Of a stretch of 64,000 nt of DNA, positions 23,735 through 59,132 are shown in pieces. The notes under the pieces are model-generated. The model saw only the letters and a list, made by a program, of their open reading frames with translations. It searched no databases and was not told the DNA's origin. This DNA is from Paludisphaera borealis. Lineage in GTDB: Bacteria; Planctomycetota; Planctomycetia; Isosphaerales; Isosphaeraceae. The translations under genes were made by a program, and so were the position numbers. Within the stretch, counting starts at the first letter, position 1; every line of letters starts with the position of its first letter. The DNA lies in assembly GCF_001956985.1 (NCBI RefSeq), contig NZ_CP019082.1, forward strand, positions 3,968,001-4,032,000, read 5' to 3'.

Positions 23735-24175
23735 TCACACGCGGGGCGTCTCGTCGTCCAACTTATTCCGCACCGCCTCCAGAAGCACTCGGACTCGTTC
23801 GACCGACGCGTCGAGGTTCTTTTCGACGTCGTGGCCCCAGAGGCGGAGGACGGTCCAGCCTTGGCGGCGGAGGCGCTGGAAGTTGCGGCGGTCGCGGGCG
23901 CGGTTGCGCTCGATCTTGGCTCGCCAGTAGTCGGAGAGCTTGTGCTTCCACTGGGGGTAGCGCCAGCCGTGCCAGAAGTCGCCGTCGACGAAGACGACGA
24001 CGCGGGCTTTCGTGAACACGAAGTCCGGTTTGCCGGGCAAGAGTGCGTAGTTGCGTCGATACCGCCAGCCTCGGCGGTGGAAGGCCGACGACAGAGTCCG
24101 CTCAAGCGACGTGTTCTTGCCCTTCACCGCCTGCATGGTCTTGCGGCGCTGTTCGGGCGTCAGGTTGTCGGCCAC
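23735..24175 (-). CDS. vsr: Very short patch repair endonuclease
   Basis: A 146-residue Vsr protein that nicks beside T:G mismatches made when 5-methylcytosine deaminates. The start MADNLTPEQRRKTMQAVKGK and the sequence TSLERTL are typical. The catalytic region is LPGKPDFVF...VVVFVDGDFWHG with Asp51, followed by IERNRARDRR. It overlaps the end of the cytosine methylase gene by 74 bases in another frame, which fits the usual dcm-vsr pairing and coupled translation. Confidence 0.92.
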   Translation of the reverse strand: MADNLTPEQRRKTMQAVKGKNTSLERTLSSAFHRRGWRYRRNYALLPGKPDFVFTKARVVVFVDGDFWHGWRYPQWKHKLSDYWRAKIERNRARDRRNFQRLRRQGWTVLRLWGHDVEKNLDASVERVRVLLEAVRNKLDDETPRV

Positions 24176-25373
24176 GTTCCGCCCTCGGCGATTCCGCGTC
24201 TCCGTCCTCGTGCGCCCCGGCGAAGACCGGCGACAGGACGTGCTCGTCGATCCATTGTATGACCGGCACGCAGACGGCGTCGCCGAATCCGAACAGGTTC
24301 TGGATCGTGTTGGCGGCCAACGGGAACGTCGGCGCCCCTTGCAGCCGGGCGTACTCGCGGGCCGACATCCAGCGCATCCGCAGCACGCCCCGGTCGACGG
24401 CCACCACGATCTGCTTGCCGCTGCCGCCGCGAGGCGTCCGCAGGCAGCCGGCGACGCCGTCGAACCGGACCTCGGCCCGGGTCGCGCCGGCGCGCTTGCG
24501 GCGGTAGATCGTCCCCACGAACGTCTCGCCCGACTCCACCATGGCGTCGACCCGCTCGCGGTGGCGGTCGCTCATCATATCGTGATGCTTCGTGACGGCC
24601 GCCGCGTCCCACCACGAAGGGTCGTCGCCCAGGTCGATCAGCTCGGCGACGTGCGGCGGCTTGCGGCGGGGGACCGGGACGTCGAAGGCCGTCCAGCCGG
24701 TCGCCAGGTCGATCGCTTTCATCCGGTCGACCAGCTTCGGCGGCCGGACGCGACGGTCGGCGGCCTCGATGCGCCGGGTCCAGTCGTCGGCGATCCAGTC
24801 GGACGGCGACCGCCGCGCGGCGAGCGGCCGGTCGAGGCCGTCGCGGACGCCGACGACGAACACGCGCGGACGGCTCTGCGGCAGGAACCAGCCGGCGTCG
24901 AGCATGAAGGCGTCGAGCCAGTAGCCGAGGTCCGCGAGCGACCGCGCGGCGGCCTCGAAATCCTTGCCGCCCGACGATGTGACGAAGCCCGACACGTTTT
25001 CGAGCAACACCACGCGCGGCCGACGGTCGGCCAACGCCTCAAGCAACTGGACGAATCCGAAGAACGTCGACGAGTGGGAGCCTTCAAACCCGCGCCCGTG
25101 GCCGGCGAGGGAGAGGTCAACGCAGGGAAAAGAGGCCGTCGCCAGGAACGGCCGGCCGGTGATCCGCGCCAGGACTTCTGGGGTGTTCCAGACGTCGCCC
25201 AGGTGGAAATGGCCCTCGGCCCCGAACCGCCCCTCGTAAAGCTGCTGCTTCTTGGGGTCGACGTCGTTCGCGTACGCGCACGACCAGCCCGACCCGGCGA
25301 GCCCCTCGCGCACCAGCCCGATGCCGGCGAAGAACTCGCAGAACGTCTTGTTCGATCTCGCGATGCCCGCCAT
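24102..25373 (-). CDS. dcm: C5-cytosine DNA methyltransferase
   Basis: A 423-residue DNA cytosine methylase. Motif I is CEFFAGIGLVREGL, motif IV SFPCVDLS with the catalytic Cys84, motif VI VLLENVSGF, motif VIII QSRPRVFVVG, and motifs IX/X follow the variable target-recognition part (SAREYARLQGAPTFP). The usual PCQ is PCV here. The 3' end overlaps vsr by 74 bases. No restriction endonuclease gene is adjacent, so it is probably an orphan methylase, or part of a decayed restriction system. The start at 25373 is where family homology begins; a GTG 15 codons earlier is also open. Recognition sequence cannot be read off. Confidence 0.9.
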   Translation of the reverse strand: MAGIARSNKTFCEFFAGIGLVREGLAGSGWSCAYANDVDPKKQQLYEGRFGAEGHFHLGDVWNTPEVLARITGRPFLATASFPCVDLSLAGHGRGFEGSHSSTFFGFVQLLEALADRRPRVVLLENVSGFVTSSGGKDFEAAARSLADLGYWLDAFMLDAGWFLPQSRPRVFVVGVRDGLDRPLAARRSPSDWIADDWTRRIEAADRRVRPPKLVDRMKAIDLATGWTAFDVPVPRRKPPHVAELIDLGDDPSWWDAAAVTKHHDMMSDRHRERVDAMVESGETFVGTIYRRKRAGATRAEVRFDGVAGCLRTPRGGSGKQIVVAVDRGVLRMRWMSAREYARLQGAPTFPLAANTIQNLFGFGDAVCVPVIQWIDEHVLSPVFAGAHEDGDAESPRAERGRQPDARTAPQDHAGGEGQEHVA

Positions 25374-25439
25374 GCCGCGCCCCAAAGTGAATCCGCCGCG
25401 TCGCGGGAATCCTACCACACGGACGGCGGCGGGGCCGGA

Positions 25440-26138
25440 TCAACCCAGTCCGTGCCGCCAGTACCAGTTCCCCAACCACAACGCCAGCACGCACATGTTT
25501 CCAAGCGAGTGCAGCGCGACAGGCACGAGGATCGAGCCGCTCTTGAAGAAGGCCCAGCCCAGGAAGAAGCCCGCCACCAGGTTGTCGGGCGCGGGGTTGC
25601 CATACAGGATGTGCAGCAGCCCGAAGACGACGCCGCTCAGTGCGATCGTCCCCCAGGGTTTCAAGACCGGGACGGCCCCGGCGCAAAAGCCCAGCCGATA
25701 GGTCGCCTCCTCGACGACCGGAGCCATGACGCACATGCTGATCAGCCGCTCCGGTGCGTCCTCGGGACGGATGGAGGGGCTGGGAACTTCCAGGCCCAGC
25801 AGCCATACGCTCGCACCCGCGAGGAGGATGATCGCGCCGATCGCCGCCCCGATGACCAGAGTCGCTACCGACCAGTAGCGGAGCCCCTGGATCGGACGAA
25901 GCGTCAGGCCGACCGAGGCGCGGTCGCCGCGAGCCAGGATCAGGTAGGCCGCCAGCGCGAGGAGGGGCGGGGCGGCTCGCATCCCCCAAAGGTTGGCTTC
26001 GCCACGATGGACGAGCCAGAAGTCGGCGAGGACGACCGCTCCCGCCACAAGACCGGCGACGACCGACCGCAGTCGAGAATCATTCAGCCGCCCGCCGATG
26101 GTCGTCTTCATCGTGCGGGTCGTCGGGAGGCGCGGCAT
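25440..26138 (-). CDS. CPBP-family intramembrane metalloprotease
   Basis: A 232-residue integral membrane protein of the CAAX protease/bacteriocin-processing (CPBP/Abi) family. Motif 1 is VVEEATYRLGF (Glu-Glu and Arg), motif 2 FGLLHILYG and motif 3 VALHSLGNM. About six helices are predicted. Family members cleave within or near membrane helices; bacterial substrates are mostly unknown. It follows the dcm/vsr block on the same strand with 66 bases between them. The start could also be the Met ten residues in. Confidence 0.83.
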   Translation of the reverse strand: MPRLPTTRTMKTTIGGRLNDSRLRSVVAGLVAGAVVLADFWLVHRGEANLWGMRAAPPLLALAAYLILARGDRASVGLTLRPIQGLRYWSVATLVIGAAIGAIILLAGASVWLLGLEVPSPSIRPEDAPERLISMCVMAPVVEEATYRLGFCAGAVPVLKPWGTIALSGVVFGLLHILYGNPAPDNLVAGFFLGWAFFKSGSILVPVALHSLGNMCVLALWLGNWYWRHGLG

Positions 26139-26179
26139 TTCGTCATCGACGTCGACTCCGTTGGCGTCTCTGTCTGGCT

Positions 26180-27031
26180 CTAAAGGCGGGCTGAGATCGC
26201 TCGGGCCAGACGGTCGACCGATCCCGGCGCAAGCGAGGTGAACAAGACCGGCTCGATCAGTTCGAGTTCCTGCAGCCGGGCGACGCCGGCGTTGTCGGTA
26301 GCGACGTCCACTCTCGCGTACAGCGGCCGTTCTTCGAGAGTCCCCATCGCGCGCTCGGCCAGGCGAACCTCGCCAGCGTCGTATTCGCTGCTTGCGTGGG
26401 GCTCGGTGAATCCTCGGACCGCCGACGCGAGAGTCGGGGGACGGTGGACGACGTGGCTGAGGTCGCCGTCGATGAAGACGTACGACCGCTCGCCTTCGGT
26501 CTCGAACGCCGTCAGGTACGGCTGCACCATGATCTCATGATCGGCGGCCAACCGCGCGATCCGAGACTCGACGTCGCGGATCGCCTCCAGATCAACAATG
26601 TAGGTCTCATTCGCCCCGGCGGAAACGGCGGGCTTGACGACGGCGCGTCGCCAGCTCCGTTCGCGAAGGACGTTCCCCAACCTGAAATCGTCGGTGGGGC
26701 CGATCCACTCCGTCGGCGTCACGGCGACGCCTTTTCGTTCCAGATCGCGCAAATACCGTTTATGGACGTTCCCTGTCAGGAGCCGAGGCGGATTGAAAAG
26801 CGAGGCGACTGAGGCGACGCCTTCCGCCCAAGCGAGGAACTTCTCCGGCGCAAGATGGTAATCCCAGGTCGACTGGATGACGACGGCCCTCGCTTCGCCC
26901 CAATCCGCCCGTTCATCGGTCCAGACTTGCGGCCGCGCCTTCAGGCCGAGGCGCCCCAGCGCGTCCAGTATCCCTCGATCATAAGGCCCCAGCTCGGGGT
27001 ACTCGCCGCTGGTGGCGATGAGAATATCCAT
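26180..27031 (-). CDS. ATP-grasp fold protein (glutathione synthetase/RimK-like)
   Basis: A 283-residue cytoplasmic protein. The N-terminal pre-ATP-grasp part has RAVVIQSTWDYHLAPEKFL, then the ATP-grasp core: NPPRLLTGNVHKRYL, VVKPAVSAGANETY (ATP-binding lysine), IMVQPYL, EGERSYVFIDGDLSHVV, and the Mg-binding end LYARVDVATDNAG with LQELELIEPVLF. The family ligates a carboxyl to an amine or thiol with ATP; the substrates cannot be told here. It is 41 bases upstream of the CPBP gene on the same strand. Confidence 0.82.
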   Translation of the reverse strand: MDILIATSGEYPELGPYDRGILDALGRLGLKARPQVWTDERADWGEARAVVIQSTWDYHLAPEKFLAWAEGVASVASLFNPPRLLTGNVHKRYLRDLERKGVAVTPTEWIGPTDDFRLGNVLRERSWRRAVVKPAVSAGANETYIVDLEAIRDVESRIARLAADHEIMVQPYLTAFETEGERSYVFIDGDLSHVVHRPPTLASAVRGFTEPHASSEYDAGEVRLAERAMGTLEERPLYARVDVATDNAGVARLQELELIEPVLFTSLAPGSVDRLARAISARL

Positions 27032-27071: not shown

Positions 27072-27380
27072 TCAAACCGGCCGACCCGGCCCCTCGTCGC
27101 CGAACGTCCAGATTCTCGTGACCGGAACGCCGAGGTCGTCGACCTTGACCTTCACATTCCGCGACGTCCGGCCCCGTTGCATCACATAGACGATCAGGCG
27201 GCGATCGTAACCGAGCTTGTGGAGGATGAACGCGACGGCCAAACCCGTGAAGGCCACGACCATGAAGAAAACGGCCGCCAGGATCGCGGCGATCAGGCAG
27301 ACGACGCCCATCACGATGAGGATCGGGATCAAGAGGAAGAACGGCACGACTTTGCCCCCGGTCGGTGAAAGGTTTCGCAA
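27072..27380 (-). CDS. Small membrane protein of unknown function
   Basis: About 102 residues. Two closely spaced hydrophobic segments (FFLLIPILIVMGVVCLIAAI and AVFFMVVAFTGLAVAFIL) are followed by a basic cytoplasmic tail containing VKVKVDDLGVPVTRIWTFGDE. The annotated first codon is TTG; a GTG at 27347, with GGGGG upstream, may be the real start. It precedes the ATP-grasp gene on the same strand by 40 bases. Confidence 0.5.
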   Translation of the reverse strand: MRNLSPTGGKVVPFFLLIPILIVMGVVCLIAAILAAVFFMVVAFTGLAVAFILHKLGYDRRLIVYVMQRGRTSRNVKVKVDDLGVPVTRIWTFGDEGPGRPV

Positions 27381-27542
27381 CCGTGGCGCTCATCGTATCA
27401 GACGACCCGAAATCCGGCCATCCCGGCCGTTCGTCGTGGGTGCAACTCCCGATCCTTTCGTACTCAGTCCCGGATGATTTTGTTTCAAAACCAGCGCAAC
27501 GCGCCGCCGGGCGAGGTATCCTCGATTGCGGCGGAGACGTCC

Positions 27543-30131
27543 ATGAAGAACCTCCTTCGCGGTACAAAAAGGCGGCTGGCGATGGTCATCCGGCTCCTCT
27601 TGCTCGCGGTCGTCGTCGGTCTTCCGGGGGCGGCCGACGAACTCCTGCCCGTCACCGTGGAGGTCGTCGATGAGGGGACGGGCAAGCCCGTCGCCGCGTT
27701 CTCCTACCGCGCCCGCTACAGGGCGCCGGGCCAGGTCAGCCCCGAAGTCGAAACCTGGACGAAGGTCGAATCGGCTTCCGGCTCCTTCATCGTCCAGGCT
27801 CCGCGCGCCTGCCGACTGAGCGTCGAATTCCGGTGGATCGACGCCAAAGCCGGGACGGAACTCCGGGACGAATTCATCATTCGTTCGAGCGACGACCCCC
27901 GCCGCGTCGTCATGAAACTGAAGCGCGGGGCGACCGTCCACGGGACCGTCCTCGATGCCGGCACCGGCAAAGCCGTCGCCGGTGCGACCGTGGTCCCTGT
28001 CGTTGTGAGCCTGAAGCGCGACGAGGCCCAGCAGGCCACCACAGACAAGGATGGCCATTACGAACTGCGCGGGGTTGATCTCGAGCAGGGCGTCTGGGTC
28101 TCCCACCCGGACTATGCGCCGCACGAAAGTAAGTTGGATGTGGATAAGCCCGAGGAATCGCGCTTCGACCGTTTCCTGACGCCGTTGCCGGCGAACACCA
28201 ATCTGCAAGGCACGGTGCGCGATCCAGACGGGAACCCGTTGGAGGATGTGACGATCCAGGGCAGCGACGGCCATAGCGCCCAGACGGCTCGCGACGGAAC
28301 CTACGCCGTTCGCGATGCGGGCCGCCACCTGACTTACAAGAAGGAGGGCTACATCGAGAAGGAAGTCCACGGCGACGCGCTCAAGGCCGGACAAGTGGTG
28401 GTACTGGAGCGTAGATATCCGTTGGCGGGACAGGTGTCGCGGCCCGACGGTCGGCCGGTCGAGTCGTTCAGCTTCGAGGTTTCGCCGAACCCGAGCGCGA
28501 ATCCCTGGAACTGGACACATATGCCGATCACGGTGAAGGATCGCCAGGGCCGGTTCTCGATCGGAAATGATCGATCGGGCAGAGCCTGGGTCGGCGTGCG
28601 CGCCGAGGGCTTCGCCGCATGGGAAGGATGGGCCGACGTCGCCGGGGAGAGCAAGCCGCTGATCGTCCGCCTCGACCCCGGCGTCGCGGCCTCGGGGAAG
28701 GTCGTCCTGCCGGTCGGAGCACGCGGGGAGGTCCAGGGCACGCTAGTCCCTCGGCGGATCACGCTGAGTGAGTGGGAATCCGGGAGCGGCTCGTCCGCAA
28801 AGGAGTTCGGAACCCTGACCTCGACCGTCGGCGTCGACGGAGGCTTGCGGTTCGATCACGTCCGCCCCGATCGCTACATCCTCAAGCTCGCCGGCCCCGA
28901 CGTCACGACCAAGGAGCTGGCCTTCGACGTCCCCGCCGAGGGCTTCGATCTCGGCACGATCCGCCTCGCGATCGCGGGGCGGGGCCGCATCGAGGGGTGC
29001 GTCTTCCGGTCGGCGGAGCACGGCGGAGGCGCCTGGGCCTTCGCCAACGGCTACGCGCGCGGCCCCGATTTTCGAAAAGACGACATGGTCGAATTCCTAT
29101 CCGACGAAGATGGCCGGTTCTCAGCCGACGGCGTGCCCGAGGGGCTCGTCAAGGTCGGGTTTCCCTACCACGTCTTCGATGTGATTAACGCCGACGAATG
29201 GGTGGTCCAGGTGCTCGCGGGCCAGACGACCCAGGTGCATCTGCTCGACCCGTCGGAGAGCCGCCCGCTGGCGATCGAATTCCGCATCGGCGACGGCTCG
29301 AAGGAGCAGTACGGTTCGGGGACCGGCCTCGGCGCCAGACGCGGGGTGGAGAACGTCACGACGCGCGAGCCCATGCTCCGCGTGGAGCTAACCCCTCGGT
29401 CTCAGAAGCCGCTCTCCTTCGTCGATCCCGACTGGGAGGAACTCGACGCCCAGCGGCGCATCGTGCACTCCGACGTGACCCCGGGCGAGTACCGGCTGCG
29501 GGTAATCGACTGGCTCGGTTCAAGCGACTTCGAGGAGGGGCTCCTCGCCGAGCAGGACATCGCCGTGCCGACTGGCGAGCGCATGCCCGTCAGGTTCTCA
29601 CTCGGCGCCGGATGCATCACGGGACGAGTTCTCGGCTCTGACGATCTCCTGGACCGGATCGAGGTCATCGCCCAACCTCGCGCAGGAAAGGGCCCGGCTC
29701 GCCGCGCCCGTGCGGACACCGACGGGAATTTCTGCGTCCGCTACCTGGACCCGGGCGACTACACGGTCTTCGCTCACGACCCCAAGGCGGGCTGGCTGCG
29801 CGTCGAGAACGTCGCGGTGGCGTCGAACGCGGTCGACGTCGGCGGACATCGCCTCGCGCCCGGCGGGACGATTCTCGGTTCGATAGCATTCCCCCGTCCG
29901 TGCGCGGTCCCGGACGAGGTCGTCGCGATCGGGCCTGGGGGAGTCGTGCTGAGGCTCCCCTTCGAGGTCTTCTCCAGCTTCGACCGCTTCGAACTCGACG
30001 GCCTGTGGCCGGGCGTCTGGGCGATCACGGTCCGAAGCCTCGGAGACGTCCTCGCGACGACCACGGCCGAAGTCGTCGGCACGGAGAAGGTCCGCGTCGA
30101 CCTGGCGACAAGCATCAAACAAGGCCCATAA
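27543..30131 (+). CDS. Secreted protein with repeated carboxypeptidase-regulatory-like domains
   Basis: An 862-residue protein with a signal peptide (MVIRLLLLAVVVGLPGAADE within the first 45 residues). It is a string of beta-sandwich modules of the carboxypeptidase-regulatory (CarboxypepD_reg) type. Examples are GATVHGTVLDAGTGKAVAGA, LQGTVRDPDGNPLEDVTIQG, PLAGQVSRPDGRPVESF and TDGNFCVRYLDPGDYTVFAH. These modules are common in large planctomycete envelope proteins and probably bind ligands or stiffen the protein; there is no catalytic domain. The ATG at 27543 is preceded by GGAG at 6 bases; the frame is open from 27474. Confidence 0.78.
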   Translation: MKNLLRGTKRRLAMVIRLLLLAVVVGLPGAADELLPVTVEVVDEGTGKPVAAFSYRARYRAPGQVSPEVETWTKVESASGSFIVQAPRACRLSVEFRWIDAKAGTELRDEFIIRSSDDPRRVVMKLKRGATVHGTVLDAGTGKAVAGATVVPVVVSLKRDEAQQATTDKDGHYELRGVDLEQGVWVSHPDYAPHESKLDVDKPEESRFDRFLTPLPANTNLQGTVRDPDGNPLEDVTIQGSDGHSAQTARDGTYAVRDAGRHLTYKKEGYIEKEVHGDALKAGQVVVLERRYPLAGQVSRPDGRPVESFSFEVSPNPSANPWNWTHMPITVKDRQGRFSIGNDRSGRAWVGVRAEGFAAWEGWADVAGESKPLIVRLDPGVAASGKVVLPVGARGEVQGTLVPRRITLSEWESGSGSSAKEFGTLTSTVGVDGGLRFDHVRPDRYILKLAGPDVTTKELAFDVPAEGFDLGTIRLAIAGRGRIEGCVFRSAEHGGGAWAFANGYARGPDFRKDDMVEFLSDEDGRFSADGVPEGLVKVGFPYHVFDVINADEWVVQVLAGQTTQVHLLDPSESRPLAIEFRIGDGSKEQYGSGTGLGARRGVENVTTREPMLRVELTPRSQKPLSFVDPDWEELDAQRRIVHSDVTPGEYRLRVIDWLGSSDFEEGLLAEQDIAVPTGERMPVRFSLGAGCITGRVLGSDDLLDRIEVIAQPRAGKGPARRARADTDGNFCVRYLDPGDYTVFAHDPKAGWLRVENVAVASNAVDVGGHRLAPGGTILGSIAFPRPCAVPDEVVAIGPGGVVLRLPFEVFSSFDRFELDGLWPGVWAITVRSLGDVLATTTAEVVGTEKVRVDLATSIKQGP

Positions 30132-30240
30132 AACGGACTCGGCGAAGTCGGGGTCCAAGACCGCGCCTTGATCAAACGACCGCCGCCGACTACGATCACC
30201 GCCCGGAGGATGCATGCGACCGACCGCAAAGGAGCGAGTA

Positions 30241-32436
30241 ATGCGACGGATGTTGTGGCCGATCGGGTGCGCCCTTCTTCTGGCGACGCCGCCCTTGCGA
30301 GCGGCCGAGGACAAGCCGACGCCGCCCCTGGTCGTTCCCGTCTGGCCCGGCGACGCGCCCGGGTCGGAGAGCTGGACCCGGAAGGAAGTCGAGTACCGCA
30401 ACGACTGGGACCACAAGACGATGGTCCGGAACGTCGTCCGGCCCACCTTGACGGCGTTTCTGCCTGATCGCTCGAAGGCGACCGGGACGGCCGTGATCAT
30501 CTGCCCGGGGGGGGCGTTCCGGTTCCTGTCGTGGGAGAGCGAGGGGACGGAAGTCGCGGAATGGCTGCGGGCGCGCGGCGTCGCGGCCTTCGTGCTCAAG
30601 TATCGGCTCACTGATACGGGGGCCACGGCGGAAGAGTTCCGCGAGGCGATGAAGGAACTCGCCAGCGTCATGGCCAACCGCGACCGCCCGGACGAAGCGC
30701 GCAAGGCCGTCGAGGAACTCGCCAGCGCCGACGGCCGGCAGGCGGTGAAGGTGGTGCGCCGGAACGCGGCCGAGTGGGGGATCGCGCCCGACCGCATCGG
30801 CGTCATGGGCTTTTCGGCGGGAGGCATGGTCACGATGGGGGTCGTGATGAACCACGACGCCGACAGCCGCCCGAACTTCGCCGCCCCCATCTACGGAGGA
30901 CGGACGGGAGACGCCAAGATCCCCGCCGACGCCCCGCCGCTGTTCATCCTCTGCGCCAGCGACGACGACTTCGCCGCGAAGTCGAGCGTCGACCTCTACT
31001 CCGCGTGGAAGAACGCCGGCCGTCCCGCCGAGCTGCACCTCTATTCCAAGGGGGGCCACGGCTTCGGCATGAACAAACGAGGCCTCCCGGTCGACTCGTG
31101 GATCGAGCGGTTCGGCGACTGGCTCGGGGCGCAGGGCTTGCTCAAGCCGGCGGAGGCGAAGGCGAAGAAGACGGCGGATTCAAGCCCGGTGACGTTCAAC
31201 AAGCAGATCGCGCCGCTGCTGTTCAAGCACTGCGTCGAGTGCCACCGGCCGGGCGAGGTCGCTCCGTTCTCGCTGCTGACGTACGCCGACGCCAAGAAGC
31301 GCGCGAAGTTGCTTCAGACGGTCGTCTCCGAGCGCGAGATGCCGCCGTGGAAGATCGTCGAGGGCCACGGCGCGTTCGTCGGCGAGCGGCGGCTGACGGT
31401 CGAGGAGATCGACCGGATCGGCCGATGGGCGGAGCAGGGCGCGCCCGAGGGCGACCCGGGCGACTTGCCGGCGGCTCCGAAGTTCGCCGAGGGCTGGCGA
31501 CTCGGCAAGCCCGACATCGTGATCACGATGCCCAGGCCCTTCGAGGTCCCGGCCGACGGCCCCGACGTCTATCGCAACTTCGTCTTCAAGCTCGACGTGC
31601 CGAAGGGAAAATACATCAAGGCCGCCGAATACCGGCCCGCCAACCGCCGCGTGGTGCACCACGGGCTCATGGCCGTGGACACGACCGGCCGCGCCCGCAA
31701 GGAAGACGACGCCGACCCCGCGCCGGGCTACAAGGGATCGGGGAACATCCCCGGCGAACTCTTCCCCGGCGGCATGGCCACCTGGACCCCCGGCCGCGAC
31801 CCGATCCCCCTGGCCGACGGTATGTCGATGCCGTGGAAGCCGAACGCCGACCTGGTCTTGCAGCTCCACCTCCACCCCAGCGGCAAGCCCGAGGTCGAGC
31901 AGTCGAGCGTCGGCTTCTACCTGACCGACCAGCCGCCGCAGAGGTCGTCGACGGACCTGCTCCTGATCAACCAGAAGATCGACATAGCGCCCGGCGACAA
32001 GTCGTACCGCACGCGCGACGAGCTGACCCTACCGATCGACATGGAGGTCGTGGGCGTCTTCCCCCACATGCACCTGATCGGCCGCGACATCAAGGTCACC
32101 GCCCATCCGCCGCAAGGCAAGCCGTTCTCGCTGTTGTGGATCGACGACTGGAACTTCGACTGGCAGAATTTCTACCAGTACGTCGCGCCCGTGAAGCTCG
32201 CCGCCGGCACGCGGGTCGTGGTCGAGGCCGTTCACGACAACTCGGCCGACAACCCGCGCAACCCCAGCCAGCCGCCGAAGCGCGTCACCTGGGGCGAGGA
32301 GACCACCAACGAGATGACCATCGTCTTCCTCCAGGTCGCCCCCGCCCGCGAACCCGAATTCCGCAAGCTCGCCGAAGCGCTCCGCTCGCGCATGCTCGGC
32401 GCGATCGTCGCCAAGCCATCAGACGTCATCAAATAG
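30241..32436 (+). CDS. Secreted esterase - cytochrome c - Cu monooxygenase-like fusion
   Basis: A 731-residue protein with a signal peptide (MRRMLWPIGCALLLATPPLRA). Part 1 (about 30-305) is an alpha/beta hydrolase like acetylxylan esterases/BD-FAE: VIICPGGAFRFLSWESEG, nucleophile Ser192 in MGFSAGGMV, and GGHGFGM with the likely His. Part 2 (about 315-400) is a cytochrome c-like domain with CVECH at 331-335 (haem c attachment). Part 3 (about 415-725) resembles the type II Cu ascorbate-dependent monooxygenase fold: HH at 473-474 (VVHHGLMAVDT), LQLHLHPSG, and HMH at 609-611. Parts 2+3 form a known planctomycete/acidobacterial arrangement; addition of the esterase is unusual. AAAGGAG precedes the ATG. 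It may couple deacylation of a polysaccharide with oxidative attack; that is inference. Confidence 0.8.
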   Translation: MRRMLWPIGCALLLATPPLRAAEDKPTPPLVVPVWPGDAPGSESWTRKEVEYRNDWDHKTMVRNVVRPTLTAFLPDRSKATGTAVIICPGGAFRFLSWESEGTEVAEWLRARGVAAFVLKYRLTDTGATAEEFREAMKELASVMANRDRPDEARKAVEELASADGRQAVKVVRRNAAEWGIAPDRIGVMGFSAGGMVTMGVVMNHDADSRPNFAAPIYGGRTGDAKIPADAPPLFILCASDDDFAAKSSVDLYSAWKNAGRPAELHLYSKGGHGFGMNKRGLPVDSWIERFGDWLGAQGLLKPAEAKAKKTADSSPVTFNKQIAPLLFKHCVECHRPGEVAPFSLLTYADAKKRAKLLQTVVSEREMPPWKIVEGHGAFVGERRLTVEEIDRIGRWAEQGAPEGDPGDLPAAPKFAEGWRLGKPDIVITMPRPFEVPADGPDVYRNFVFKLDVPKGKYIKAAEYRPANRRVVHHGLMAVDTTGRARKEDDADPAPGYKGSGNIPGELFPGGMATWTPGRDPIPLADGMSMPWKPNADLVLQLHLHPSGKPEVEQSSVGFYLTDQPPQRSSTDLLLINQKIDIAPGDKSYRTRDELTLPIDMEVVGVFPHMHLIGRDIKVTAHPPQGKPFSLLWIDDWNFDWQNFYQYVAPVKLAAGTRVVVEAVHDNSADNPRNPSQPPKRVTWGEETTNEMTIVFLQVAPAREPEFRKLAEALRSRMLGAIVAKPSDVIK

Positions 32437-32660
32437 TGGGGCACGCGTTCACGGACCGAGAGTGACAGTCGCCCAGAAGCAAGCAAGGGCGGCTGCATGA
32501 AGGCCGCTCCAGCCGGCCTGGACTCAGAGGCAACCTCGGAGGGCGCGTCGAAGTTTTTATCCCGCGCCCGTGTCCGAACGGTTGCCCCCTGTTCGTTGTA
32601 CTCACGCAAGGCGGGGGAGAGGCCTCCGCCCGCGTATGCGAAACCGTCTGGAGAACCGTC

Positions 32661-32987
32661 ATGGCGAAGTTTCTGTTCATCTATCGCGAACCCACCGAGA
32701 GCCGCGCCCAGCCGTCACCTGAGGAAATGCAGGCTTTGGGGGCGGCCTGGGGCGCATGGATGCAAAAGTTCAGCTCGGCGATCGTGCCCGGAGGCGACGG
32801 ATTGAAGCCAACCGGCCGAGTCGTCAAGGCTGGACTCGTGACCGACGGTCCCTATGTCGAAGCCAAGGAACTCATCGTCAGCTTCACGATCATCCAGGCC
32901 GACGACTTCGACGCGGCGCTGGCGATCGCCCGCGCGTGTCCGCCCGGACACACGATCGAGATCCGCGAGATGGCCGGCTACGCGTGA
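32661..32987 (+). CDS. YCII/DGPF-domain protein
   Basis: A 108-residue YCII-related protein. It begins MAKFLFIYREPTESRAQPSPEEM and carries the DGPF-type motif as TDGPYVEAKELIVSF, ending ACPPGHTIEIREM. Proteins of this family are genetically tied to ECF42 sigma factors and are thought to be their targets, not classical anti-sigma factors. The stop overlaps the sigma gene start as GTGA, so the two are translationally coupled. GGAGAA precedes the ATG. Confidence 0.88.
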   Translation: MAKFLFIYREPTESRAQPSPEEMQALGAAWGAWMQKFSSAIVPGGDGLKPTGRVVKAGLVTDGPYVEAKELIVSFTIIQADDFDAALAIARACPPGHTIEIREMAGYA

Positions 32988-34258
32988 GCGAACCGCGCGC
33001 ACTGGTGGAGCACTTTTTTCGCCACGAGTTCGGCCGGCTCAGCGCCGTGCTGACCCGGTCGCTCGGCGTGCGCCATCTCGCTCTCGTCGAAGACGTCGTT
33101 CAAGCCGCGCTCGTGCAGGCTCTGGAAACCTGGTCGCGGCGCGGCGTGCCGGAAGACCCGGCCGGCTGGCTCTACCGCACCGCCCGCAACCTGGCGATCG
33201 ACGCGCTGCGGCGGGAGCGAACCCACGCCCAGGCGTTGCCGCGCCTGGCCGAAGACGCCGAGTGGGAATCGTCGCCGCTCGAAGCGCATTTCGCCGACGA
33301 GATCGGCGACGAACCGCTTCGCCTGCTCTTCGTCTGCTGCCACGAAGCGGTGCCGGCCGAATCCCGCGTCGCCATCGCGCTGCGGACGTTATGCGGTTTC
33401 AGCACCGCGGAGATCGCCCGCGCGTTGCTCACCACCGACGCCAACGTCCAGAAGCGGATCGAGCGGGCGCGGGATCGGCTGCGCGAGCTGGACGTGGATT
33501 TCGACACGCCGGATGCGGCCCAGCTTCGCGCTCGGCTGGACGCGGTCCTCGCGGTCGTCTATCTCCTTTTCAGTCAAGGCTGCCACGTCACCCATGGCGA
33601 CCTGCCGATCCGCCGCGACCTGTGCGACGAGGCCCGCCGGCTGGCGCGGATGCTCGCCGCCCATCCCGTCGGCGACGTCCCGGCGGTCCATGCCTTACTC
33701 GCGCTGATGTGCTTCCACGGGGCCCGCTTCGACGCGCGCATCGCTCTCGACGGCGCCATCGTTCTGCTTGAGGAACAGGATCGTTCCGCCTGGAACTGGA
33801 GCGACGTGCGTGAAGGCATGGCGTGGCTCGCCAGGTCCGCCGACGGCGACGAGCTGACGCGCTATCACGTGGAAGCCGGCATCGCCTGGGAGCACTGCCG
33901 CGCGCCGACCTTCGCCGACACCGATTGGGGACGGATCGCCGAATTGTACGACACGCTCGATCGCATCGCGCCGTCGCCACTGCACTCCCTCAACCGCGCG
34001 GTCGCCGAAGCTTACCTGCACGGCCCGCAAGCCGGCCTCGATCGCCTGGCCGCCGTTCTTCCGGAAAGCGTTCCCGCCCGTTATCCCGGTTGGCACACGG
34101 TGATCGGCGAGCTCCATTTCCGCCTCGGCCGACACTCCGCCGCCGAGCGCGCCTGGCGGGAAGCCCTACGCTTCACCACCGCCCGCGCCGATCAAGATTT
34201 CTTGCGTCGCCGCCTCGCCGTCTGCCGGCTCGATGGAGACGAGCCCGCCACGGAGTAA
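32984..34258 (+). CDS. ECF42-type RNA polymerase sigma factor with TPR-like extension
   Basis: A 424-residue sigma factor starting with GTG at 32984, overlapping the YCII gene. Region 2 is at about 15-85 (LALVEDVVQAALVQALETW, GWLYRTARNLAIDALRRE) and region 4 at about 115-170 (VAIALRTLCGFSTAEIARAL, DANVQKRIERARDRL). A long helical C-terminal extension (about 180-420, DUF6596/TPR-like: LFSQGCHVTH, HALLALMCFHGARFDARI, LNRAVAEAYLHGPQAGL) follows. This architecture, together with the DGPF partner, fits ECF group 42, where the C-terminal extension controls activity in place of an anti-sigma factor. No ECF42-type promoter could be identified with confidence upstream. Confidence 0.9.
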   Translation: MSEPRALVEHFFRHEFGRLSAVLTRSLGVRHLALVEDVVQAALVQALETWSRRGVPEDPAGWLYRTARNLAIDALRRERTHAQALPRLAEDAEWESSPLEAHFADEIGDEPLRLLFVCCHEAVPAESRVAIALRTLCGFSTAEIARALLTTDANVQKRIERARDRLRELDVDFDTPDAAQLRARLDAVLAVVYLLFSQGCHVTHGDLPIRRDLCDEARRLARMLAAHPVGDVPAVHALLALMCFHGARFDARIALDGAIVLLEEQDRSAWNWSDVREGMAWLARSADGDELTRYHVEAGIAWEHCRAPTFADTDWGRIAELYDTLDRIAPSPLHSLNRAVAEAYLHGPQAGLDRLAAVLPESVPARYPGWHTVIGELHFRLGRHSAAERAWREALRFTTARADQDFLRRRLAVCRLDGDEPATE

Positions 34259-34318
34259 CGCCAGTCCAAGGAAAGAGACGCGGACGAAAGCGGATGCGGA
34301 CCAACATACAAATAAGAA

Positions 34319-34388
34319 CCCCTCATCCGCCCTTGTGAGGCCCGTGCTCCCGCGGGGAGAGCAGGGGGGAGAGGTCGGATGAGGGGTG
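34319..34388. repeat. Palindromic repeat related to the CCCCTCATCCG family
   Basis: CCCCTCATCCG (34319-34329) and CGGATGAGGGG (34376-34386) are inverted copies; the middle holds CCCGCGGGGAGAGC. It is a diverged relative of the units at 9801 and 41201. It lies between the convergent sigma and WD40 genes and could serve as a bidirectional terminator. Confidence 0.55.
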
Positions 34389-34418
34389 GTCGCGCGTGAA
34401 TCGAGCAGGTCCGGTCAG

Positions 34419-35423
34419 TCAGAGGTCGAGGCCGGTGCCCATGGACTGGTCGACGTCCCAGAGGCGGACGGCGCCGTCGAGGCTGCCGGAAGCGAGGAGG
34501 CGGCCGTCGGGGGAGAAGGCGACGGAGTAGACGTTGCCGGTGTGGCCTCGGAGGATCGCCCGGGGGCGGCCGTCGACGGCGTCCCAGAGACGCACCGTCT
34601 GGTCGTGGCTGCCGGTCGCCAGGAGCGAGCCGTCGGGGGAGAAGGCGAGGGCGGCGACCCAGCCTTTGTGACCTTCGGGCTCGGCGCGAGGGACGCCGCG
34701 GGCGACGTCCCACAGCTTCACGCCGCGGTCGAATCCGCCCGAGGCGACGGTCGCGCCGTCGGGCGAGAACGTCACGGCGGCGGTGCCGTATTCATGGCCG
34801 ATGAGTCGGACGCGGGGCGTCGGCTCGGCGCCGGTCAGGTCCCAGATCTTGACCTCGCCGATCCGGTCTTCGATCGCCGGATCGACCATCGCCGGCACCA
34901 CGCCCGAGCCGGCCGCCAACATCGTGCCGTCGCGCGAGAATTCCACCGACCAGACCGGGGCCGAGTGTTCGGGCAGGCGCATCCGCTCGGCGCCGGTGAC
35001 GGCGTTCCAGAGCGTCACGGTGCGGCCCTCGCCGCCGGCCGTCGCCAGGGTCAGGCCGTCGGGCGAGAAGGCCATCGCGTCGACCTTGCCGGGCGTGCGC
35101 AGCAGGCGGCGGCCGCGGCCGCCCTCGCGATTCCACAAGGTCACCGCGCCGAACGGCTCGCCGTCCCAGCCGGTGCCCAGGCCCGCGACGAGCGAGCCGT
35201 CCGGCGAGAAGGCGACCGCCTCGACCTCGTCCCACACGCCCCGGAGCACGCGCTCCAGCTTCATTCCGGCCGGGCCGGTCCGCAGGTCCCAAAGCTTGAT
35301 CTGTCCGTCCCAGCCGCCGCTCACGAGCGTGCCGCCGTCGGGTGAAAACGCCACCGAGGTCACAACGTCGCTGTGCCGCGCCAGTCCGCCGCGCAGCGGC
35401 TTGGCTTCCATGGTGAGAGCCAT
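34419..35423 (-). CDS. WD40-repeat beta-propeller protein
   Basis: A 334-residue protein made of seven WD40 repeats, enough for one closed propeller. The repeats are typical (SVAFSPDGGTLVSGGWDG, IKLWDL; LAFSPDGSLLATGSHDQTV, RLWDA; SVAFSPDGRLLASGSLDGAV, RLWDV). No signal peptide or enzymatic domain is seen, so it should be a cytoplasmic binding platform. In planctomycetes such propellers are often attached to kinases or stand alone; its partner is unknown. The start at 35423 is followed by another Met at residue 6. The 304 bases upstream (35424-35727) lack genes. Confidence 0.85.
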   Translation of the reverse strand: MALTMEAKPLRGGLARHSDVVTSVAFSPDGGTLVSGGWDGQIKLWDLRTGPAGMKLERVLRGVWDEVEAVAFSPDGSLVAGLGTGWDGEPFGAVTLWNREGGRGRRLLRTPGKVDAMAFSPDGLTLATAGGEGRTVTLWNAVTGAERMRLPEHSAPVWSVEFSRDGTMLAAGSGVVPAMVDPAIEDRIGEVKIWDLTGAEPTPRVRLIGHEYGTAAVTFSPDGATVASGGFDRGVKLWDVARGVPRAEPEGHKGWVAALAFSPDGSLLATGSHDQTVRLWDAVDGRPRAILRGHTGNVYSVAFSPDGRLLASGSLDGAVRLWDVDQSMGTGLDL

Positions 35424-58355: not shown

Positions 58356-59132
58356 CTGGATTCGATCCTCAGCTTCAGGTGTGAGTCGCGGTTTTCGCCT
58401 GCGCGACGCCGGGTGACGGATCAGCGACTGAACCCACCATTCTAGTGAAGAAAAAACCAGCAATTCAACACACAGCCCCCCTCGTTCGCCCAGATCTCCA
58501 GAGCCGGGCAATCGAAAACGGCGCGGCCGAAGCCATGCCTTGCTCAGATTGTTCAGGCGGCGAGGGCTCGAGGTCGATGAACTTGACCGTGTTCTTCGAG
58601 CCGGACGGCTCGATGCACGTGATGCGATGAATCAACGCCCGATTCTCGCGCACTGCCAGGTCTTGCATCTTTGTGCCTGCTCGTATGTGCCCGCTCGACC
58701 GTTGACGTCGTTGCGAGCATCGGTTTGAGCGTGTCGACGACTTCGTCCGATTTCATGCCGAACCTGCACGACTCGCAACGCGAAACCTTGGGATGCCACA
58801 CGGTGATCCCGCTAGTGTTCGGCACGAGATTTGAGGCGAGAGTTGGAAGCAAGCCGATTTGTAGCCGGCCTCTGTGAGGCCGGTCCCAGGCCGATGTGGA
58901 GTGCGGCGGCTTGCCGCCGCGCTGAACACGCGGCCCAGGCGGGAGCAAGCTCCCGCACTCCAAAAGAGGAGGCCGGTCCGGTCCCAAGGCGCGCGTCCCG
59001 AGGTCACAGGCCCGGCCACAACCATGCGGGCCGTCTCACGCCGCCCGATCGGTATCGCGCGGCCGTGAGCAATCATCGCGCCGAACTCTGATGCCTCCCC
59101 GGGTTTGAATTCCGAACCCGGACCGCTCGCCC
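58356..59132. other. Gene-poor gap upstream of the surface-protein gene
   Basis: No convincing gene. The left part holds the promoter of the surface-protein gene. A short minus-strand frame at 58465-58668 (NRALIHRITCIEPSGSKNTV) has some protein-like character but no recognisable family. The right part is repeat-rich: GCCGGCCTCTGTGAGGCCGG at 58863-58882 and the palindrome at 58898-58961. Confidence 0.35.
58898..58961. repeat. Palindromic repeat (GGAGTGCGGCGGC type)
   Basis: The ends GGAGTGCGG (58898-58906) and CCGCACTCC (58953-58961) are inverted copies. Inside are two smaller hairpins, GCGGCGGCTTGCCGCCGC and GCGGGAGCAAGCTCCCGC. Just upstream, GCCGGCCTCTGTGAGGCCGG is another hairpin. This looks like nested insertion of short palindromic units. 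Confidence 0.6.

Follow-up and report, generated by a model that had tools for sequence, protein, structure and literature searches.

An in-frame fusion of an acetyl-xylan-esterase-like domain to a haem c and PHM-like copper module, seen in a single genome

The question raised by this locus is whether one gene in the 64-kb window (the whole stretch of DNA analysed here, 64,000 nt) truly encodes a single protein with an esterase, a site for c-type haem and a copper domain, and if so, what that combination might do. The original prediction placed a single polypeptide at nt 30241–32436, with an esterase, a CVECH haem site and a copper domain marked by HH and HMH, and both coordinates and motifs proved to be right. 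It also took the protein to be exported, and the N-terminus does look like an export signal, as judged by eye, so that the protein is probably exported. The features that define the gene and its junction are as follows.

30241–32436, + strand: fusion-protein gene, 731 residues, stop codon included in the coordinates (open-reading-frame reading)
30229–30234, + strand: AAGGAG, Shine-Dalgarno-like site, 6 bases before the ATG at 30241 (read directly)
30241–30306, + strand: signal-peptide-like N-terminus, residues 1–22 (judged by eye)
31141–31188, + strand: linker, residues about 301–316, with pLDDT <50 at residues 307–311

The frame (nt 30214/30241–32436, + strand) has no internal stop over its full length, and the ATG at 30241 is its likely start because of the AAGGAG at nt 30229–30234. 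The G+C content at the third codon position lies between 0.88 and 0.98 in each 180-base window along the gene, including the junction, and so gives no sign of a frame break. The esterase is joined to the remainder of the protein (the haem and copper domains, here called the module) in frame and at domain borders, and neither a stop nor a remnant of a signal peptide or of intergenic DNA lies in between. A second signal peptide or an intergenic remnant was sought in the linker and none was seen; the nearest module relative does have a signal peptide, by eye, and the lack of one in the linker suggests a real fusion. The three parts are far from chance, since homology with other modules spans about 390–415 residues at E-values down to 3.7e-214 and homologous esterases align at E-values down to 1.5e-125. 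The original prediction had itself raised the possibility that the join was an assembly artefact. A sequencing or assembly error linking two genes would agree with the absence of the join from every independent genome searched, but is highly improbable given the clean in-frame join at domain borders, the even codon composition, and the position of the gene inside a 7,497,544-base (7.5-Mb) contig of a genome that consists of 3 contigs and has a completeness of 99.93. Compared with the nearest relative, mismatches at codon positions 1/2/3 were 0.21/0.16/0.39 for the module and 0.24/0.22/0.49 for the esterase. The mismatches at third positions are about double those at first and second positions, so both halves would appear to have been constrained, a signal that dates mostly from before the fusion. 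A model of the full-length protein gave a pLDDT of 89.5 and a pTM of 0.62, with low confidence in the linker, and the relative placement of the two halves in this model is uncertain.

The N-terminal half carries the features of an alpha/beta-hydrolase serine esterase, i.e. a Ser-Asp-His triad, a GxSxG motif and the corresponding fold (Z up to 28.3).

30316–31140, + strand: alpha/beta-hydrolase esterase domain, about residues 26–300 (Pfam, alignment, structure match)
30814–30816, + strand: nucleophile S192 in GFSAGG (esterase alignment)
30964–30966, + strand: triad residue D242 (esterase alignment)
31057–31059, + strand: triad residue H273 (esterase alignment)

Residues 146–281 match the Pfam hydrolase families Abhydrolase_3 (4.9e-9) and DLH (7.9e-9), and S192, D242 and H273 are invariant in all 18 aligned esterases (the fusion and 17 homologues). 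Structure prediction, which had been proposed as a check, returned an esterase fold for this half and a PHM fold for the copper domain (below). The full-length model had matches to 6a6o, an acetyl ester-xyloside hydrolase (Z 28.3, rmsd 2.0, 228 aligned residues), to a planctomycete esterase from Thermogutta (Z 25.2) and to BTAxe1 of B. thetaiotaomicron (7dwc; Z 24.2, rmsd 2.5, 213 aligned). The scores for NCBIfam AxeA1 (117.7 bits, equivalog cut-off 700) and PaeX, a pectin acetylesterase (111.4 bits, equivalog cut-off 550), fall far short of the cut-offs, so neither name is assigned and the half is described as acetyl-xylan-esterase-like. Fold and triad are shared with BTAxe1, 6a6o, AxeA1 and PaeX, but unlike that group the present esterase is tied to an oxidative module, and around residues 125–160 it carries a long insert, mostly helical, relative to several aligned relatives. 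It would most likely cleave small acyl groups (acetyl) off sugars or comparable esters. Five separate esterase genes are found elsewhere in the same genome at E-values up to 1e-5.

The gene setting of esterase relatives was inspected in four of the 54 matching plasmid records. The relative on a Hymenobacter plasmid is flanked by GH43 and another glycosyl hydrolase, the one on a Deinococcus plasmid adjoins GH3 with GH78 close by, and that on a Caulobacter plasmid is clustered with a glycosyl hydrolase, a tannase/feruloyl esterase and rhamnose genes, while the fourth lies among hypothetical genes, with the nearest carbohydrate gene, a beta-galactosidase, about 3 kb away. The original prediction had considered that the esterase might be a separate gene in all relatives; this held for the relatives found, except for one that is itself half of a larger protein. 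In genome G234 an 846-residue frame (L087:9042–11579, minus strand) encodes a Tannase/feruloyl-esterase domain (E 5.3e-89) followed by an esterase of the same type, 60% identical to the present one; the partner therefore differs, and the esterase is C-terminal there. The esterase half plausibly acts on plant-type glycan esters.

The C-terminal module begins with the haem domain.

31189–31500, + strand: c-type haem domain, about residues 317–420 (module alignment, Pfam scan)
31231–31245, + strand: haem-attachment motif CVECH, C331-V-E-C334-H335
31339–31341, + strand: M367 of MPPW, candidate second haem ligand (module alignment)

C331, C334, H335 and M367 are invariant in all 59 aligned modules, and M367 would be the axial haem ligand. 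The fusion's own module scores below the Pfam cut-off of 27 bits both for Cytochrome_CBB3 (13.6 bits) and for Haem_bd (15.0 bits); Cytochrome_CBB3 matches 54 of the 59 modules at E-values up to 0.1. The copper domain follows.

31504–32409, + strand: PHM-like dicopper domain, about residues 422–723 (alignment, profile, structure match)
31657–31662, + strand: CuH-type ligands H473 and H474 (HH; alignment with PHM)
31867–31869, + strand: CuH-type ligand H543, aligned with the His of PHM VLQVHY
32065–32073, + strand: CuM-type ligands H609 and H611 (HMH), aligned with PHM HTH
32314–32316, + strand: CuM-type ligand M692, in a weak alignment with PHM DEM

All six candidate PHM-type copper ligands are invariant in 59/59 aligned modules. 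A profile built from these 59 sequences found PHM chains at an E-value of about 2e-9, with HH, H and HxH aligned to their PHM counterparts; M692 is aligned with DEM of PHM in a weak second stretch alone (1.1 bits). The module model (pLDDT 90.8) gives a copper domain that matches PHM 6ala (Z 22.2, rmsd 2.9, 263 aligned) and human DBH 4zel (Z 21.9, rmsd 3.8, 288 aligned), and all PHM and DBH structures were matched at Z 17.3–22.2, with Foldseek E-values of about 1e-12. The next family among the structure matches, of PNGase type, follows from Z about 7.7–7.8; SCOP places PHM and PNGase F together. Pfam Cu2_monoox_C scores 15.7 bits on the fusion's module (cut-off 23), with no Cu2_monooxygen match listed; the homologue L003 passes for Cu2_monoox_C (34.5 bits) and stays below the cut-off for Cu2_monooxygen (21.9 against 30). 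At E-values up to 0.1 the two families match 47 and 21 of the 59 modules, respectively.

The C-terminal 300 or so residues are thus alike in fold to PHM (1phm, 6ala) and DBH (4zel) at Z about 22, and all six copper ligands are matched by alignment, the Met weakly, at an overall identity of 12–18%. Unlike PHM and DBH, the protein is bacterial, has a haem c domain ahead of the copper domain and carries an esterase. In PHM, two copper sites are supplied by ascorbate, and the HxH...M set of CuM is where O2 binds; the known substrates of PHM and DBH are peptides and amines. The description of the domain as copper-monooxygenase-like in the original prediction holds in the specific sense of a PHM/DBH-like type, and does not extend to an LPMO. 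The latter identity was rejected: the His brace of an LPMO requires an N-terminal His, whereas the N-terminal part here is an esterase and the copper domain, with its PHM/DBH fold, begins some 420 residues from the N-terminus.

The haem c plus PHM-like copper module is a widespread bacterial family. Homologues occur also on Myxococcota and Acidobacteriota contigs, and four further copies (E up to 1e-5) are present in the fusion's own genome. Partners were surveyed in 61 module genes (65 rows minus the four duplicates L058, L085, L088 and L089), which are best matches rather than a random sample, most of them with 1.5 kb of flank, and redoxins were detected with a profile built from 8 fused proteins at E-values up to 1e-5. 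A redoxin is fused to the module in 29 (25 N-terminal and 4 C-terminal fusions) and encoded by a neighbouring gene, on the same strand and within the stretch fetched, in a further 10, whereas 21 have no redoxin within the stretch and one, the fusion gene, has the esterase. At L014 and L015 a redoxin was still absent within up to about 9 kb (L088, L089). The esterase as the module's usual partner was accordingly rejected, as that role belongs to the redoxin (39/61 fused or adjacent). Redoxin - cytochrome c - PHM-like proteins of Planctomycetota and relatives, for which the searches made turned up no name, share the whole C-terminal module with the present protein (33–70% identical in the alignment of 59), and differ in that their usual partner, fused or adjacent, is a redoxin and not an esterase. 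Other attachments are more scattered: TPR repeats in L084 (library scan), TPR-type matches below curated cut-offs in L044, in L050 a C-terminal redoxin together with a weak EF-hand match, and in L046 a Solibacter-type domain.

The maximum-likelihood tree covers 59 modules (the duplicates were left out of it and of the alignment, as were L049 and L078, whose modules are cut by contig or frame ends), and in it the fusion's module is sister to L013 with support 100/100. L013 is not fused to any partner and begins with a signal-peptide-like stretch of its own; a separate redoxin gene lies directly ahead of it. In genome G014, a patatin-like phospholipase frame (L085:8691–10022, minus strand) overlaps the frame end of the nearest module relative by a few bases. 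Among the literature matches listed, titles and abstract openings included no publication on the module family or the fusion, and no biochemical data on family members.

The order esterase, haem, copper was found in the fusion's genome alone among all genomes searched. The search for this three-part order, also proposed originally, thus recovered the known case and no second one in the genomes and plasmids covered. The nearest relatives of the two halves, 71% identical for the module and 69% for the esterase, come from two other genera of the family, where each is encoded on its own. In 45 genomes of the family a full-length match occurred in the fusion's genome only, among the matches listed. 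With the esterase as query, 13 of 397 genomes in a sample of the class matched at E-values up to 1e-45, and of the 14 matching places listed, the only one joined to a module was the fusion gene's own. Two samples of the phylum likewise gave no other fusion, 15 of 392 genomes matching the whole protein (E up to 1e-118) and 8 of 324 the esterase (E up to 1e-35), with the fusion's genome counted in both. None of the 54 matching plasmid records covers 80% of the fusion protein, and none of five loci retrieved from other phyla has both halves. These genome samples (59, 45, 397, 392 and 324 genomes) overlap one another, and because scoring covered only the top candidates of each genome (for most genomes 18 in the sample of 59, 24 in that of 45, and 6, 2 and 7 in those of 397, 392 and 324) and the outcome for the 59 and the 45 genomes applies to the matches listed, a weaker fusion could be missed. 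A module was absent from 33 esterase loci (a count in which some loci overlap and show one place more than once, most with 1.5 kb of flank), and an esterase of the fusion's type was absent from the other module loci fetched, so neighbouring genes give no evidence of a single pathway. The fusion is, then, a new combination of known families and parts.

The gene lies in a stretch of about 7.0 kb that is specific to this genome.

27381–34418, no strand: genome-specific stretch of about 7.0 kb with the fusion gene (compared with congeners G002 and G003)
27474–30131, + strand: gene for an 885-residue protein with CarboxypepD_reg repeats, 109 bases upstream of the fusion gene and on the same strand

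Between relatives of the same flanking genes, G002 and G003 hold 2.8 and 2.0 kb of other DNA, alike in the two (77% over 1686 bases) and with no DNA match to the 7.0-kb stretch. The upstream flank is kept in order in both congeners (relatives of nt 24102–25418 and 27072–27380, the latter only 35–47% identical), as is the downstream flank from nt 34419 onward (WD40, sigma-54 regulator and kinase genes), while genes at nt 25440–27031 were also unmatched in the G002 and G003 stretches. In G004 the downstream flank genes alone were matched, within the stretch fetched. The nearest relatives share no gene neighbourhood: apart from the fusion-gene halves, there was no synteny in the stretches of G014, G016, G234, G019 and G031, where the residual matches involved overlapping or antisense reading frames, plus one match of 34%.

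Besides the fusion gene, the 7-kb stretch carries the CarboxypepD_reg protein, a YCII protein and an ECF-type sigma factor. The CarboxypepD_reg gene is a possible transcription neighbour of the fusion gene; relatives of its product are 47% identical in congener G003 and 44% in G001 (8 genomes searched). At nt 32661–34258 the frame that comes after the YCII protein gene overlaps it and encodes an ECF-type sigma factor with DUF6596. The G+C content of the stretch is much like that of its surroundings. No tRNA lies at its edges (the only one in the window is at nt 58895–58965), and around it there are no inverted or long repeats, just four short direct-repeat pairs. Promoter-like sites were sought and none found, three terminator-like sites are all on the minus strand (shuffled mean 1.8), and no RNA family reached its gathering score within the 64-kb window.

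As to anatomy and general chemistry, we favor (probability roughly 0.6) an exported esterase tied to a haem-fed dicopper oxygenase of PHM type. Two existing genes would have been joined into one bifunctional enzyme. Electrons would enter via the c-type haem, a route suggested by the fact that this haem invariably precedes the copper domain, and pass to the CuH-type site, while the CuM-type site with O2 would hydroxylate an activated C-H bond, the haem standing in for soluble ascorbate. Export, haem loading, copper loading, both activities and the electron route are all inferred here, and as a working guess the fusion co-localises two exported enzymes. A more specific version, in which the enzyme acts on a glycan or small molecule capped by an ester and the esterase frees a hydroxyl or carboxyl next to the C-H that is hydroxylated, with haem c again replacing ascorbate, is a long shot; if it is true, no earlier PHM-type enzyme would, to our knowledge, have contained its own electron donor as well as its own hydrolase for activating the substrate.

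Other readings were weighed against this one; the readings overlap, and the confidences attached to them do not sum to one. The original prediction supposed a shared acetylated polymer, deacetylated by the esterase and then oxidised by the module once exposed. The carbohydrate-gene settings of three of the four plasmid relatives (Hymenobacter, Deinococcus, Caulobacter) and the Tannase partner in G234 lend this some color, but the gene context does not support it: the esterase and module do not co-occur elsewhere in the loci fetched, the module's usual partner is a redoxin, the fourth plasmid relative is removed from carbohydrate genes, and no glycoside hydrolase is present among the 7 neighbours of the fusion gene scanned within the window. 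Moreover, the module resembles enzymes of peptides and amines rather than an LPMO, and we consider oxidation of the same polymer quite doubtful. The module may instead be an exported copper/haem unit for electron transfer or redox sensing, with a redoxin partner, that is carried along with the esterase. The frequency of redoxin as a fused or adjacent partner points this way, and the variety of other attached parts (TPR-type, weak EF-hand, Solibacter-type) suggests a generic module. Both copper sites would, on the other hand, be superfluous for a pure electron carrier, yet all six PHM-type ligands, including the HxH...M set of CuM, are kept throughout the alignment, and we regard a non-oxygenase role as unlikely.

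The join might also be a recent accident in a variable region, with no joint function and with one or both halves possibly idle. Its occurrence in a single genome, its place in a genome-specific stretch, and the stand-alone nearest relatives of both halves all agree with this, and with one genome there is no second natural copy that would show retention by selection. Against it, the triad and all ligand residues are retained and third codon positions have diverged about twice as much as the others, though the latter is mostly a pre-fusion signal. We think an accident somewhat unlikely, and keep the bifunctional, haem-fed oxygenase as the preferred reading.

Taken alone, the fusion is another domain shuffle in a planctomycete-type genome, and the wider haem-copper family is more interesting than the fusion itself. 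A possible class of substrates can be approached through the esterase fusion. Should the module be active, it would represent a large bacterial family of PHM/DBH-type oxygenases with a built-in haem c electron donor, and would answer how enzymes of this type can run without ascorbate.
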